Shown here: positions 10,822-30,552 of the stretch, one piece after another | Layout: each line of letters opens with the position of its first letter | How positions within the stretch are numbered: position 1 is the first letter of the stretch | Source: a virus | Length of the DNA: 49,862 nt | IMG/VR virus record: IMGVR_UViG_3300037156_000185 | Span: 1-49,862 of that record | Direction: 5' to 3' (one strand) | Notes under the pieces: model-generated | What the model was told of the DNA's origin: nothing | Databases searched by the model: none | The model's input: only the letters and a program-made list of their open reading frames with translations | Made by a program: the position numbers and the translations under genes

Positions 10822-10980
10822 ATGCGCAATAAATACCCGGGCATCTGCTACCAATGCAACAAGCCGGTCCTCCCTGATCAAGGCCATTTCGAACGGTACG
10901 CCGGGGGTTGGCGGGTACAGCACGTCGCCTGCGCCATCATTGCTCGGCAGAAAAGGAATGCCGATGCCCAAAAAGCGTGA
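10822..10980 (+). CDS. Small zinc-finger protein
   Basis: Fifty-two residues with GAAAGGGA upstream of the ATG. 'GICYQCNKPV' (Cys-x2-Cys) and 'RVQHVACAII' (His-x3-Cys) form a plausible single C2HC zinc site, a common layout in small phage proteins. First gene of the rightward operon. Its last 17 bases overlap the start of the HNH/VRR-NUC hybrid gene. Confidence 0.7.
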   Translation: MRNKYPGICYQCNKPVLPDQGHFERYAGGWRVQHVACAIIARQKRNADAQKA

Positions 10981-11587
10981 ACTGGAGCGGACGCTCGAGG
11001 AGAGGTGCGTCGCCAAGGTCGAAGCGATCGGCGGCAAGGCGCTAAAGCTCAAGCTCGACGGCGTGCTCATCTCAAAGATGCGCGCTAACGAGCTGCTGCT
11101 ACCCGCTAGACGTGTTCGCTATTGGCTGGATTACGACCCGCTTACCGGCGTGCTAACGCGAAGGCACAACTCACATAGGTGCGCGGCCGGGGCCATCTAC
11201 GGACGCGCTAACGGTAACGGCTACCTAAAAAGCACTTTGGAAGGGCTCACTTTTTACGCTCACCGCGTAGCTTGGGCCCACGCTCACGGGTGTTGGCCGG
11301 AATTTGCCATCGACCACGTAGACGGCAATCGCGCAAATAACCGGCTATCAAATCTACGCGTAGCCACGTGGTCGCAGAATAACCACCACAAAAAAGCAAT
11401 TCGGGCGGGTCTAAAAGGTGCTTTCACAGCGCATACTCTGGCCTCTGGAGAGCTTATGTGGCGGTCGATCATCCGTATCGGCGGCATAAACACTCACCTC
11501 GGCGTATTCACTACCGAACAAGCCGCACACGAAGAATATTGTCTAGCCGCTGCAAGGTACTTTGGCGTCTTCGCGAGGTCCGAATGA
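10964..11587 (+). CDS. HNH homing endonuclease fused to a truncated VRR-NUC N-terminus
   Basis: A 207-residue protein from ATG 10964 (AGG 7 bases upstream). Residues 1-34 ('KKRELERTLEERCVAKVEAI', 'GGKALKLKLDGV') parallel the N-terminus of the VRR-NUC protein encoded next. At about 35 the sequence switches to an HNH_3-type endonuclease: 'YDPLTGVLTRR', 'GYLKSTLEGLTFYAHRVAW', catalytic 'AIDHVDGNRANNRLSNLR'. The C-terminal 60 residues resemble an AP2-like DNA-binding domain ('GVFTTEQAAHEEYCLAAARYFG'). It ends overlapping the VRR-NUC start (ATGA). The fusion suggests a mobile HNH gene inserted in a VRR-NUC gene whose intact copy now follows. Codon use after the fusion point is AT-richer. Confidence 0.82.
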   Translation: MPKKRELERTLEERCVAKVEAIGGKALKLKLDGVLISKMRANELLLPARRVRYWLDYDPLTGVLTRRHNSHRCAAGAIYGRANGNGYLKSTLEGLTFYAHRVAWAHAHGCWPEFAIDHVDGNRANNRLSNLRVATWSQNNHHKKAIRAGLKGAFTAHTLASGELMWRSIIRIGGINTHLGVFTTEQAAHEEYCLAAARYFGVFARSE

Positions 11588-15682: not shown

Positions 15683-16309
15683 TCAATCGTTAGGGGCGGC
15701 GTACTCGCGCACGAATTGCGCGGTCTTGTGGGCGGCGAGCAGCGCGGGGTCGACGAGCTTGGCGATGACCTGGCTAAAGAAGAACCGCCCGTCACCGACC
15801 TCGGCGATGAGCGTCAGGTTCTCGTGCACGAGTTTGATCACCAAGCGCCCGTTTTCGATCTCGAGCACAGGCGGAACCTGGGTACGCATGACAATGTACG
15901 CAGTCGACGGTTTTTCTACGCTGGTACCATTGGCTATCTTTCCCCACGACACTCCGTCTAACTGCACCTCCGTGACCTGGTCTGCATACTGGGCGTCGAC
16001 AAGCGTCTGAGCTTCCGACGTCTCTTCAGGCCAACGAGCCGAAGCAGCCTGCTCGCTATCGGTAAACTCGTCCACGATCCGGTTATGGACGACCTCGTCC
16101 GCATCATCCGCGTTGGTCCACTCGGCGACAAGATCCAGGCTGGCGTTGCCGTAGAAATGCCGGCCGTCGAGGTAGTACCTACGCCCTCCAGCGCCAAGGA
16201 TCCAACCGAGTAGATCACCATCCATTGACCCGCGTTCCATGGGCCCGCAGCAATAGCCGTCGCGTGTCCGATAGAATTTGCCGATCTCGGGGGCGATGGT
16301 GTCAGTCAT
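15683..16309 (-). CDS. Hypothetical protein
   Basis: A 208-residue protein with two parts. The N-terminal 75 residues ('GKFYRTRDGYCCGPMERGS', 'YYLDGRHFYG') look like a small beta-rich domain found in phage early proteins. The rest is polar, ending with a mixed alpha/beta stretch ('LEIENGRLVIKLVHENLTLIAEVG'). No catalytic motif is seen. It is adjacent to the Acb2-like gene with no gap. Confidence 0.65.
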   Translation of the reverse strand: MTDTIAPEIGKFYRTRDGYCCGPMERGSMDGDLLGWILGAGGRRYYLDGRHFYGNASLDLVAEWTNADDADEVVHNRIVDEFTDSEQAASARWPEETSEAQTLVDAQYADQVTEVQLDGVSWGKIANGTSVEKPSTAYIVMRTQVPPVLEIENGRLVIKLVHENLTLIAEVGDGRFFFSQVIAKLVDPALLAAHKTAQFVREYAAPND

Positions 16310-16585
16310 TCACTCGTCCTCCGGCAGCTTGACGCGCCCCGGCTGGAACACGGCCCGGTTGAGCGCCATGAAACCAATCTGGATATGACTACGTGCTTCC
16401 AGCAACCAACCAAATTGGTCGGTTACCATCGCAGACGTGGATTCAGGGACCTCGTTCATCAGAGCGTCAATTTTGCGCAGCAAACGTTCTTCGTCGACCT
16501 TGAACTCGTTGACCAGCGCGATGTTGGCGTCGGATTGCGAGCGATAGCCGCTCACCGGCGGCCCGGGCTTGAGATCATCAGTCAT
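16310..16585 (-). CDS. Acb2/Tad1-hairpin-like protein, candidate anti-CBASS sponge
   Basis: Ninety-one residues. The pattern 'GYRSQSDANIALVNEFKVDEERLL', a variable linker, then 'LLEARSHIQIGFMALNRAVFQP' matches the Acb2 family by eye: a GYR motif, a long helix with I-x-L-x-N-x-x-K, and a second helix ending R-x-H-x-Q-x-G-F-M-A-L-x-R-A. Acb2 proteins form hexamers that bind the cyclic oligonucleotide signals of CBASS and so block that defence. It sits in a run of small early genes, a usual place for anti-defence functions. Which nucleotide it binds cannot be read from the sequence. Confidence 0.72.
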   Translation of the reverse strand: MTDDLKPGPPVSGYRSQSDANIALVNEFKVDEERLLRKIDALMNEVPESTSAMVTDQFGWLLEARSHIQIGFMALNRAVFQPGRVKLPEDE

Positions 16586-23978: not shown

Positions 23979-24214
23979 GGCGTTAACTCCGTAGCCTTGA
24001 CGAAAGTGGCGATGAACGCCGCGCGGCCGAGTTCGGTTTCAAATCCCCACCATGTTTGGCCGTCGCCGGCGGGAACAGCAATGAAATTGCCGATGGCGTC
24101 GGGGTCGAAGGTGCGCGCGACGTCGGAAGGCGTTGGTTCCATGGTCGGACACTCCGCATGGAAGGGGTAGGCGGCCTGGTGGAGCGTCCAATAGGATCGG
24201 TTGCGCGGGGTCAT
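23975..24214 (-). CDS. Hypothetical protein
   Basis: Seventy-nine residues with 'GDGQTWWGFETELGRAAFIATFVKA', a mixed alpha/beta stretch. Start overlaps the RHH gene stop. No family is recognised. Confidence 0.6.
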   Translation of the reverse strand: MTPRNRSYWTLHQAAYPFHAECPTMEPTPSDVARTFDPDAIGNFIAVPAGDGQTWWGFETELGRAAFIATFVKATELTP

Positions 24215-24408
24215 TTGGTCGGTTCCTTTTCAGACTGCCATACGGCTTTCGGCCAGATGTCGGGGTTGTCGATCGCGTCCTCGAGCAGCAATAGGATCTG
24301 GAGGTTCAGACTGCGCTGATTGAGCGCCGCCAGGGCGGTGAGGCGCGCATGCAGGGCTGGGGGGAGGCGCAGCGTTAGTCTGGCGCGGACGTCGGGCTGG
24401 TCGGTCAT
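24211..24408 (-). CDS. Arc-like ribbon-helix-helix DNA-binding protein
   Basis: Sixty-five residues. 'RARLTLRLPPALHARLTALAALNQRSLNLQILLLLEDAI' (about 8-46) matches Arc/Mnt-type RHH proteins: a beta-strand with L-R-L-P, then two helices with R-S-L-N. Likely a phage transcriptional regulator. Coupled by ATGA to genes on both sides. Confidence 0.8.
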   Translation of the reverse strand: MTDQPDVRARLTLRLPPALHARLTALAALNQRSLNLQILLLLEDAIDNPDIWPKAVWQSEKEPTK

Positions 24409-26227: not shown

Positions 26228-26682
26228 TTGCGTTTCTTCCTTCCAAGAAAAGCGATGGCATGCTCGGTGAAGGCGGTGACGCGCGTAGTGTAATCGAGTT
26301 GGCCGCGCAGATAGGCGGGCATGTCGTCCAGCAAATCGAGAAGTTGGCCGATAACGTAGCGCTCGTCCGGCTGCACAAGCTCGTAACGCGGGTTCAGGTT
26401 CATTTTATGCTGCGCGATGGCCTTGAGTTCGGCTGCGGTAGGATGCGAATAGAGCTGGGTCCGGAGGAGCTGTTCTTCCAGGGCGACGACTTCATACGGT
26501 TCAGCGAGCGCGCGCACGGCAGGCAGCAGCTGATCGAAACGTGGGATCCAGTGATCGCGCTTTAACTGGTGGACAGAGTAATCCCGGACAATATGCCGCG
26601 CGTGATCGTCCAGCATTTCGCGGACCAAGCCGCCGCCTTCGGCGACTAGTGGGGATGTAACGTATTCAGGCTCGGCGGTCAT
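26224..26682 (-). CDS. Hypothetical protein
   Basis: A 152-residue mostly helical protein: 'YVIGQLLDLLDDMPAYLRGQL', 'TEHAIAFLGRKKRK'. Overlaps the start of the tandem HNH-like gene's stop by four bases. No family is recognised. Confidence 0.6.
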   Translation of the reverse strand: MTAEPEYVTSPLVAEGGGLVREMLDDHARHIVRDYSVHQLKRDHWIPRFDQLLPAVRALAEPYEVVALEEQLLRTQLYSHPTAAELKAIAQHKMNLNPRYELVQPDERYVIGQLLDLLDDMPAYLRGQLDYTTRVTAFTEHAIAFLGRKKRK

Positions 26683-27620
26683 TCGGCAAGTTCCTTGTGA
26701 ACGGTGATGTTAGCCCAAGCGGTGTTGGTTTTGTCGCCATCCTTGAATCGGACGGTGCGACGGGCCGGCCACACACCTTGCCGCATGAAAACTGCCATGC
26801 TGGCGGCCGGATAATCGCGGCCAAAGAAACCGATGACCGGGCTGCCGTTGGTGTTGAGTTCGTCGGCACGCTCGCCCTTGGCCAAATCGATCTCACCTTC
26901 GAGCTTGGCCCGTCGTTTGGTGCGCGAGTGCTGAGCGCGGCGATAGAAAGCGCCGGTGCGCGGGTCATAGGCGAGCCAAACGCGAGCCTCGGCGAGGGTC
27001 AGCGAGCCTTCGTCGCCGGCGAGGGTATGCAGCTCGGTGAACAGCGGAATAGGCGCCGGATGGGCGTTGACGAAATCAACACCGGCTAGGCGTTCATAGT
27101 ACATCTCGGTGGCCTTGCCCAAAGTTCGGGCGTTGCCGATCAGGTATTTCAAGCCGTTGTCCTCGGGATGGAAAACCTGCCATTCGCTAGTCAGCGGCGA
27201 CTGGACAATATGTGCGATCGGCGAAGTTTGCCGAATGGCGTTCTGCTTTTGTAGTGCGCGGCGCCGGCGTTGCGACTTGCGGGCGGCAATGGCGTGTGGA
27301 TCCTCGCTCAGGGTCGGGCGGACATAGGACAGATTCGCCAGCGAACAGTTTGAATTGTCGAAGTCGGCGAACCGCGGTTCCCAGCCTTCGGGCGGCCATT
27401 CGCCGCGTAGATAGAACCAAGCCAGGCGATGCTTGTAATAGCGCCGGCCCTGGACAGTGATGACGCTGCGGCCATCGGGCAGGGCGAGGCCGGCCGGGGT
27501 GCCAATTTTGACCCGGTGCGATGGCGATATTCGCCAGTTGAAAACACCGGTTTCGGGGTCAAAAGCCAAGCGCCGGAGAAGCTCGACGTGAGAGAAGGTC
27601 TCGGGGGTCTTTGCGGGCAT
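26679..27620 (-). CDS. Tandem degenerate HNH-like protein, possibly DNA-binding
   Basis: A 313-residue protein from ATG 27620; upstream in-frame starts fall inside the promoter. Two copies of an HNH_3-like unit. The first has 'LRRLAFDPETGVFNWRISPS', 'GRRYYKHRLAWFYLRGEWPP', 'FADFDNSNCSLANLSYV'. The second has 'ARVWLAYDPRTGAFYRR', 'GRDYPAASMAVFMRQGVWP', 'VRFKDGDKTNTAWANITV'. In both, the catalytic His (normally in D-H-x-x-G-x) is missing: D-F-D-N and K-D-G-D-K instead. So it is probably not an active nuclease. A role in binding the repeated motifs in its own upstream region is inference. Confidence 0.7.
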   Translation of the reverse strand: MPAKTPETFSHVELLRRLAFDPETGVFNWRISPSHRVKIGTPAGLALPDGRSVITVQGRRYYKHRLAWFYLRGEWPPEGWEPRFADFDNSNCSLANLSYVRPTLSEDPHAIAARKSQRRRRALQKQNAIRQTSPIAHIVQSPLTSEWQVFHPEDNGLKYLIGNARTLGKATEMYYERLAGVDFVNAHPAPIPLFTELHTLAGDEGSLTLAEARVWLAYDPRTGAFYRRAQHSRTKRRAKLEGEIDLAKGERADELNTNGSPVIGFFGRDYPAASMAVFMRQGVWPARRTVRFKDGDKTNTAWANITVHKELAE

Positions 27621-27628
27621 GGTTTGAT

Positions 27629-27786
27629 AAGCACCAACGTTTCTGAGTTGACGCATACTAACGTCTTTTGCACCGAGTGTCAATTGCGGTAAGCGTGAAT
27701 CGGTTAGCATTGGTGCGAGCGCTTACCATGAATGATGTTTGAACGAAAAGACAGCAGTAAGCCTAATCGACGAAACGTTGGTGCTT
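27629..27786. repeat. 158-base interrupted palindrome with promoter
   Basis: Three matched blocks share one centre (27707.5): 27629-27643 with 27772-27786 (15 bp perfect), GTCTTTT at 27663-27669 with its complement at the mirrored position, and 27688-27695 with 27720-27727 (GGTAAGCG/CGCTTACC). Spacing is equal on both sides. TTGGTGC repeats lie at 27631 (reverse), 27710 and 27778. It is probably an operator or replication element. Confidence 0.7.
27655..27683 (-). promoter_or_regulatory. Leftward promoter of the tandem HNH-like gene
   Basis: On the minus strand TTGACA (27683-27678), 17-base spacer, TAGTAT (27660-27655), giving transcription from about 27648, 28 bases before the ATG at 27620. 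It lies inside the left arm of a 158-base dyad. Confidence 0.65.
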
Positions 27787-27837
27787 TAAGCTGGGGCAGC
27801 GTAAACACCTGTGAGATAAGGCTTTTTCGCCGGTTAG

Positions 27838-27972
27838 AAAGTTCTAAAGCACCAAGGATTAGAAAGATTGGATAGCATATAGGAGACTAGACATATAAGT
27901 AGCGGTAAAAGATATGTCTGGTGCCCTATAGCCCTATGGAAATAGATCAATCTTGGTGTTTTAGAACTTTGA
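27838..27972. repeat. 135-base AT-rich imperfect palindrome
   Basis: Outer arms at about 27838-27860 and 27949-27972 match at 21 of about 23 bases (AAAGTTCTAAA-R-CACCAAG). Inner blocks include AGACATAT (27889-27896) with ATATGTCT (27912-27919). The arms stay similar almost to the centre near 27904. Much more AT-rich than its surroundings. It carries two more copies of the GCACCAA motif. No gene lies in it. Confidence 0.7.
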
Positions 27973-28039
27973 AAAGGGCCGCCGAATGCGCCGCCGTCAC
28001 CGCGGTAAACAGGGCGGCGGCGCACGGTTTCCAGCGTGG

Positions 28040-28300
28040 TCAGCTGTCGAATTCCAGGTCGAGCAACAGATCATCGGCATCGTCCAAAGGCTCGGCGTCA
28101 TCGGTGGCGTCGAGGAGGAGCGCCAAAGTTTCCGCGGCGGCAAGGGCGAGCTCGCGGGTAGGGTGGCGCATGAGGGCGTGCGCCTGGTGGCGTGCAAGGC
28201 GCGTCAGGGCGTGCGAGCGTGGCAGGATATGGGATAGGCTCCAAAGTAGCGAGACGGTCCCAGTGGGCGAATTTGAGGGGGTAGAGGCGTGGATGCGCAT
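28040..28300 (-). CDS. Hypothetical protein with acidic tail
   Basis: Eighty-six residues from ATG 28300, preceded by CTGAAAGGAACC. Basic, helical N-terminal two thirds and a very acidic end ('DATDDAEPLDDADDLLLDLE'). No family is recognised. The 340 bases after its stop are noncoding and hold the two palindromes. Confidence 0.6.
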   Translation of the reverse strand: MRIHASTPSNSPTGTVSLLWSLSHILPRSHALTRLARHQAHALMRHPTRELALAAAETLALLLDATDDAEPLDDADDLLLDLEFDS

Positions 28301-28311
28301 AGCGGTTCCTT

Positions 28312-28539
28312 TCAGGGTGTGGTTTCGGTTAGATACTCGTGGCCAGCTCGAGCGCTTGCTTCCAAGGATAGCGCGGCAAGGTTGTTGCCGTTGGGCGCGA
28401 AGCCGGATTCGATTCGCATTGCCCACATGCGTAGCGCGTCGGGATGGGTGTCGTAATAGCGCCAATGGCGCGCGGCGCGGTCGCATTCCTCGGTGAGGCG
28501 CCGAATCAGTTCGTCTTTGTCGAGGTCGGTCCAGGGCAT
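28312..28539 (-). CDS. Hypothetical protein
   Basis: Seventy-five residues preceded by CTGAAAGGAACC. Begins 'PWTDLDKDELIRRLTEECDR' and is helical and charged. No family is recognised. Confidence 0.65.
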   Translation of the reverse strand: MPWTDLDKDELIRRLTEECDRAARHWRYYDTHPDALRMWAMRIESGFAPNGNNLAALSLEASARAGHEYLTETTP

Positions 28540-29928: not shown

Positions 29929-30552
29929 GTGGTAAACGCGAGGCGATACCAACGCTACGGCAAGGTTTATAGGTTCAAGGTGCTAGCTGAAACCACCCGG
30001 CCAACTCCGGTTGATGTGCTCGATCATACAGACGGGCTTGACGGGCTCACCTCGCGCCAGCAACTATTTGTTTCGCTTTGCTTCTCCGGGTTGACGGATA
30101 CCGAAGCATATCGCCAGGCGGGCGACTGCAGTCGTATGAGCGAAGCGACTATAGGTCGGCATGCGTATGACATGGCACACTTGCCTAGAGTTCAGGCAAA
30201 GCTACGCCAGTTGCAAGATAAGAGGGACCAGCAGTCAACGCTTGCCGCCAATCTAACAAGAGATTGGATAACTAAAAGGATAATGTATCTCGCCGACAAT
30301 TCTGACAAAGACAGTGTAAAGCTTGCCAGTCTCATAGCGCTCGGAAAACACGTTGGCATTGATCTTTTCCGTGAGACCACACGCGTCGAGCGCGTCGAAA
30401 GAACGCCCGAAGATATTGATAGGGAGCTCGAAGCGCAGCTCAAGAGTCTTGCCAATACTATCGAAGGTTCCGCTCGAGCGATCGTCACCAAGCCGTTCAC
30501 GCCAGCGCCTTCGGCGGATGCACGTTCGCGTCGCAAACACAAGCCCGCTTAA
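29929..30552 (+). CDS. terS: Terminase small subunit
   Basis: A 207-residue protein, start GTG 29929 with a weak ribosome-binding signal. 'LTSRQQLFVSLCFSGLTDTEAYRQAG' followed by 'IGRHAYDMAHLPRVQAKLRQLQDKRD' is the pattern of small terminase proteins: an N-terminal HTH that binds the packaging site, then a coiled coil for oligomerisation. It recognises phage DNA and activates the large subunit, here 2.8 kb downstream with six small genes in between. Confidence 0.8.
   Translation: MVNARRYQRYGKVYRFKVLAETTRPTPVDVLDHTDGLDGLTSRQQLFVSLCFSGLTDTEAYRQAGDCSRMSEATIGRHAYDMAHLPRVQAKLRQLQDKRDQQSTLAANLTRDWITKRIMYLADNSDKDSVKLASLIALGKHVGIDLFRETTRVERVERTPEDIDRELEAQLKSLANTIEGSARAIVTKPFTPAPSADARSRRKHKPA

Follow-up and report, generated by a model that had tools for sequence, protein, structure and literature searches.

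A giant palindromic gap overlapping the putative promoter of an HNH-like gene is a probable regulatory DNA element in an uncultured, probably podovirus-like phage

Two giant palindromes occupy the gap beside an HNH-like gene

In a linear 49,862-b IMG/VR entry that we took whole (the window; IMGVR_UViG_3300037156_000185), we found that a single intergenic gap holds two giant imperfect palindromes, and that this dyad region is a real and conserved DNA element, probably a regulatory one. A promoter/operator is the best-supported reading of the region and a replication origin comes second. The record probably covers only part of the genome of a podovirus-like phage that is uncultured; it encodes a terminase, a primase, a PolA-type polymerase, a helicase, an endolysin and tail genes. 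Among named phages, the nearest terminases are those of phage DSL-LC04 and of Pelagibacter phages HTVC027P and HTVC023P (<50% identity), and the nearest records that we found are uncultured: the pair G043 and G042 (capsid-like protein 81–86%), then G044, G004 and G040. We found no DNA similarity of the window to known phages or relatives (a 16-b match in G051 was discarded, as it appears to sit within a gene), and a DNA polymerase search of prokaryote genomes returned no prophage relative. The contigs of G004 and G040 end in 123–127-b overlaps, a sign of assembly.

The gap, which the first-pass annotation had put at about 420 bases, measures 419 b (27621–28039) and separates the HNH gene (26679–27620, minus strand) from a small gene ending at 28040. 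Rescoring bore out the earlier description of dyad 1 (27629–27786) as a 158-b palindrome centred at 27707.5 with three mirrored blocks: the outer arms AAGCACCAACGTTT and AAACGTTGGTGCTT (27629–27642/27773–27786), the middle blocks GTCTTTT and AAAAGAC (27663–27669/27746–27752) and the inner blocks GGTAAGCG and CGCTTACC (27688–27695/27720–27727), besides which there is weaker pairing along the entire length. Dyad 2 is AT-rich and centred at 27904, as had been reported, and its length is 151 b (27829–27979) rather than 135 b; its outer arms are GCCGGTTAGAAAGTTCTAAAGCACCAAG and CTTGGTGTTTTAGAACTTTGAAAAGGGC and its inner arms lie at 27878–27896 and 27912–27930. The gap is AT-rich (GC about 0.46–0.47 vs about 0.59). 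After the small gene there is a GC-rich inverted repeat, TGCGCCGCCG/CGGCGGCGCA (27987–28024), which would form a terminator-like stem without a T tract and is absent from the terminator predictions.

When we computed an ungapped palindrome score at every centre of the window, the dyads ranked as the top two (46 of 80 pairs each, z 6.1; the next had 41), and with a gapped score the 400-b segment at 27601–28000 ranked first among 495 (49.1, z 12.1). Whether the gap was taken whole or each dyad by itself, not one of 4000 dinucleotide shuffles scored as high, which places the palindromes far beyond chance. In control sets, a palindrome with z > 8 turned up somewhere in 2 of the 80 viral contigs without relation to the window (689 kb in total) and in 8 of the 78 loci with an HNH gene (757 kb in total). 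Because some strong palindromes occur in these controls, the case leans on position as much as on strength.

A repeated motif and a putative promoter lie within the dyads

All five heptamer sites listed in the first-pass annotation are at the positions given there. TTGGTGC is found at 27631–27637 (minus strand, between the HNH-gene promoter and the start codon), 27710–27716 (plus, near the dyad 1 centre), 27778–27784 (plus, dyad 1 outer arm) and 27849–27855 (minus, dyad 2 left arm), and the variant TTGGTGT at 27953–27959 (plus, dyad 2 right arm). Two further variants had been missed: TCGGTGC at 27670–27676 (minus), in the promoter spacer, and CTGGTGC at 27918–27924 (plus), inside dyad 2. Written as YYGGTGY, the motif has seven copies within 329 b of the gap, one of which overlaps the promoter through its spacer. 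The gap holds 5 of the 20 TTGGTGY sites of the window within 330 bases (Poisson P about 2e-7, which is optimistic because it was computed once the motif had already been seen); elsewhere there are at most two per 400 b and no second cluster. A search of viral contigs for the pattern AAGCACCAA-N100..130-TTGGTGCTT listed 80 loci, which we rejected as chance matches by sequence, apparently coding DNA of unrelated phages.

Inside dyad 1 we found a sigma-70-like promoter by consensus match, TTGACA-17-TAGTAT (27655–27683, minus strand), with a motif copy, CTCGGTGC, in its spacer and a –35 element whose first base is 63 b ahead of the start codon of the HNH gene. Promoters of the form TTGACA-17-TAnnnn are present at –63 to –66 of the HNH start in four of the five phages of the clade, with scores out of 12 of 10 in the window, 8 in G040, 9 in G044 and 10 in G004; a score of 8 or better at that offset is reached at 0.9% of random positions, the offset window having been picked after the sites had been seen. 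G043 has no promoter scoring at the conserved offset. The spacer carries the local motif in the window (TCGGTGC) and in three more distant phages, L122 (TGTTCC), L106 (CTAAC) and G051 (TTAACAC); no significant motif was found in the spacer in G040, G043, G044, L331 or L153, and only one of the four outer-arm motifs of the window is near the promoter.

The neighbouring HNH-like protein appears to have lost its catalytic residue

The gene downstream of the promoter (26679–27620, minus) encodes a 313-aa protein with tandem HNH_3-like domains (Pfam HNH_3, E 6e-13). In both HNH_3 stretches the general-base His is replaced (PRFADFDN and VRFKDGD), and in the window, G004, G040, G043 and G044 other residues take its place in the H-N-N/H motif; in an alignment with other HNH_3 proteins, which have His at 30 of 38 scored sites, the window clade has F, Y or others. 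From its sequence, the protein thus looks catalytically dead. It belongs to the same family as I-HmuI (PDB 1u3e), a free-standing HNH_3 phage endonuclease, which is also its best fold match, but differs from it in having two tandem domains with the general-base His lost in both. The predicted fold has a pLDDT of 74 and a pTM of 0.37, so that single domains alone are usable; Smad MH1 DNA-binding domains are among its weak matches. The MH1 domain has been described as a homing-endonuclease fold that has degenerated and serves DNA binding, and is thus a precedent for a nuclease fold turned DNA binder. The pseudo-HNH protein is a plausible candidate ligand of the motif.

Homologues of the HNH gene are syntenic and full-length in G004 and G040 and shorter in G043 and G044, and HNH homologues at large are mostly single-domain and unlinked to palindromes. 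Across the palindromes from the HNH gene lies a gene for a small acidic protein of 86 aa (28040–28300, minus; its start is an internal Met of the ORF at 28040–28486), with homologues at the equivalent position in G043 and G044 (tblastn) and, by eye, probably in G004. The window has a second HNH_3 gene at 10940–11587 (plus, E 1.5e-15), which encodes a partial paralogue of the 26679–27620 protein. Sliding-clamp-like genes (L313 4326–4967, minus; L314 18149–18847, minus) adjoin the palindrome regions of G043 and G044, and none was found in the window.

Place and symmetry are kept in relatives while sequence is not

Conservation in relatives had been suggested as a check on the palindromes, and we found that their place and symmetry are kept and their sequence is not. 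Four of the five clade phages have an extreme palindrome in the gap between the small acidic gene and the HNH_3-type gene, with no similarity between them at the DNA level: besides the window, G040 (z 21.6, about 120 b), G044 (z 42.6, about 280 b) and G043 (z 15.2, about 220 b). In G043, two other segments outscore this gap in raw terms, though their z is lower. In G004, the gap has no giant palindrome (z –1.2, folding hardly better than shuffles) despite the HNH gene and the promoter, which suggests that the palindrome is dispensable for the promoter; a high-scoring window at 24001–24400 of G004 was set aside as it is GC-rich and lies elsewhere in that genome.

Among more distant relatives, a scan of 108 loci (terminase or capsid relatives and named phages, 1.14 Mb) gave four above z 8, three of which (L123, L127 and L153) are palindromes of 276–319 b located 2.0–2.5 kb upstream of the terminase. 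A looser scan added palindromes in L106, L122 and phage 023Pt_psg01, and in phage DSL-LC04 two complementary 47-b arms lie about 130 b apart in the gap upstream of an HNH gene. Upstream sequence of at least 2.5 kb is available at 33 of 84 terminase loci. Overall, the palindromes of the distant relatives, G051 among them, measure 230–440 bp and precede the terminase by 2–4 kb, and the motif repeated in them differs from phage to phage, for example TGTTCC in L127 and L122, CTAACA in L106, TAACACA in G051 and GTGCCA in 023Pt_psg01. In most of the more distant phages we recognised no HNH gene beside the palindrome, so there is no single ligand for all. A cis element that is kept as form and not as sequence is missed by homology searches, and this one was found through its gene neighbourhood. 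A word search of two papers on relatives (PMC9599517, PMC10611076) returned no mention of such a palindrome.

Palindromes near the terminase start in L112–L115 were rejected as short operator-like sites that are different in kind. In L112, L114 and L115, paired sites, GTGTAACACCTGTTACACT, lie about 440–520 b upstream of the terminase match; they fit the NtcA box GTAN8TAC, and the host is possibly a cyanobacterium. In L355, a near-perfect palindrome of 364 b takes up one end of the stretch (1–364) and covers part of gene X; it is probably an assembly chimera.

Arm covariation and mismatch composition in related palindromes

A search that started from a gene adjoining the palindromes of L123 and G051 led us to an alignable sister family (L331–L354), whose palindromes likewise lie upstream of the terminase. 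In 13 of its sequences there are 33 consensus pairs, which are formed in 92% of cells. Two-sided changes, which keep the arms complementary, occur in 14 of the 33 pairs, as compared to 10.2 expected in shuffles and 3–6 in slid controls, and in 48 cells, as compared to 17.2 in shuffles (0 of 500 as high); the structure was derived from the very alignment on which it was tested, and the independent events are few because the sequences fall into few groups. The pattern could equally be obtained by arm conversion. In this family, a promoter scoring 10–12 of 12 follows the palindrome, and 16-b operator-like palindromes specific to each phage recur around the giant palindrome and promoter. In L331, L345, L346 and L351–L354, in the gap after gene X, copies of these 16-b palindromes differ by group (TTTCCCACAGTGGGAAA, CTTTCGTACGGTACGAAAG, TTCATACGGTATGAA) and occupy like positions, with one copy at the apex of the giant palindrome in L351–L354; judged by sequence, they may be an operator of changing specificity. 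The gene adjoining the sister-family palindrome returned no fold match.

Each strand of the window gap is predicted to fold much more strongly than its shuffles (z –7.2 and –6.4). Rfam gave no match near the gathering score, and a tRNA search returned nothing. Across 15 palindromes with 588 mismatched positions, there are 68 G.T and 138 A.C mismatches on the strand whose transcription would run away from the terminase, close to the 60 and 133, approximately, that we calculated by hand from the base composition of the mismatches, which indicates that wobble pairs are preferred on neither strand. An asymmetry of G.T versus A.C (P 1e-6) that we had considered as an RNA signal is thus accounted for by composition, and the lack of a G.U excess points to DNA rather than RNA.

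Discussion

We consider it an even call that the gap is an operator/promoter control region that acts in cis as DNA, in which a motif-bound phage protein switches the promoter off. The TTGGTGC-type motif would be bound by a protein of the phage, for which the pseudo-HNH protein is a possible candidate. With the spacer copy occupied, the leftward promoter would be shut; more protein would load onto the mirrored copies of the two dyads, which would join the flanks by looping or cruciform extrusion. The result would be a sharp switch-off, that is, autoregulation. Between phages, the motif would change along with the binding protein while the layout stays. Of the functions guessed at in the first-pass annotation, a multi-site operator is thus the best supported, by the promoter in dyad 1, the motif in its spacer and a like promoter in three relatives, and a partition site is not borne out: we saw no ParA/ParM/TubZ-type gene among the subset of window proteins that we searched against families. 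A counterpoint to the operator model is that a simple operator needs no arm complementarity over 150–400 bp.

That the gap is a replication origin we regard as possible but doubtful. Here an initiator would bind the motif copies as iterons, copying would start by strand opening or cruciform extrusion at the AT-rich palindrome, and the promoter would either prime replication or be under the initiator's autoregulation; iteron replicons are the model for this. An AT-rich gap with iterons and one palindrome at a fixed place is consistent with this, as is G051 (L312), where about six direct 20-b copies of CTTAATACATGTGTTATGTT (16296–16410) stand beside a giant AT-rich inverted repeat; the clamp-like genes alongside the palindromes of G043 and G044 are suggestive only. 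In G022, the cumulative-skew minimum (50,780) is 0.9 kb from the palindrome (51,693), but the genes also diverge there. GC skew, which had been proposed as a check, does not switch at the dyads, and in the window clade its extremes track the switch in gene direction, which confounds it. The clade has no DnaA box, and we recognised no initiator gene, the neighbours being HNH_3-like and small proteins without a family. A broader and more speculative proposal is that a family of podovirus-like phages places a replication start or early-gene switch at a giant palindrome that evolves fast and is under selection for symmetry rather than for sequence, and that in the window clade the tandem pseudo-HNH reader is an autoregulating initiator/repressor.

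In the relatives that we looked at, the large terminase gene follows within 2–6.5 kb of the palindromes, and in the window the dyads are 2 kb from the small-subunit gene (29929–30552). A packaging or end-formation site bound by the small terminase subunit (pac, or a hairpin forming terminal repeats) might be so placed; we think this reading unlikely, since the position varies between subclades and a promoter is attached. It is very unlikely that the palindromes are long RNA hairpins of a leader or non-coding transcript. The folding of both strands and the sister-family covariation would agree with such a structure, but there is no Rfam match, G.U is not enriched beyond composition on either strand, and the promoter is at the distal end, so that most of the palindrome lies outside its transcript. 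We give least credence to a mobile inverted-repeat element, or template-switch events, whose functionless remnants are now decaying. Template switching could make arms alike and so mimic compensatory change, and the two dyads have TAAARCACCAA ends in common; against this, unrelated sequences occupy the equivalent place in relatives, the window has no other motif cluster, and by eye we recognised no direct target repeat.

Each of several known systems shares part of the layout. In iteron replicons such as pSC101, R6K and mini-F, which have an autoregulated initiator gene, a short motif is repeated in an AT-rich region, and some of its copies overlap the promoter of the following gene, whose product binds DNA. 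The gap shares this layout, with a putative DNA-binding protein, but the iterons of those replicons are for the most part direct repeats some 20 bp long, and there is no 150–400 bp palindrome. In parC of plasmid R1, ParR binds iterons around the par promoter. Iterons there flank and shut a promoter, as we propose for the gap, but they lie outside any giant palindrome, and we recognised no ParM/ParR-type genes in the window. Herpesvirus oriS and oriL are AT-rich palindromes with inverted initiator sites, and resemble the gap as imperfect AT-rich palindromes bearing inverted protein sites (putative here), although the virus and its proteins are unrelated; in comparison with these origins and with the iteron replicons, the gap is a candidate origin at most. 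Insect and nematode mitochondrial control regions have unusually long palindromes in non-coding DNA (PMC1762429), a likeness in setting between elements that are unrelated by descent.

If the gap controls early genes or replication, it would show where regulation is centred in a phage group that is widespread, for the most part uncultured and related to HTVC023P-type pelagiphages and phage DSL-LC04. The local motif would then help to find the DNA-binding proteins that go with it. Beside such an element, a relative of homing endonucleases that lacks the catalytic His would exemplify a nuclease turned regulator. Elsewhere in the window, the gene at 16310–16585 (minus) likely encodes an anti-CBASS protein, with homologues in G004 and G040; its product matches Pfam PF24729, the Acb2/Tad1 hairpin domain, at an E of 4e-11, which passes the cut-off.
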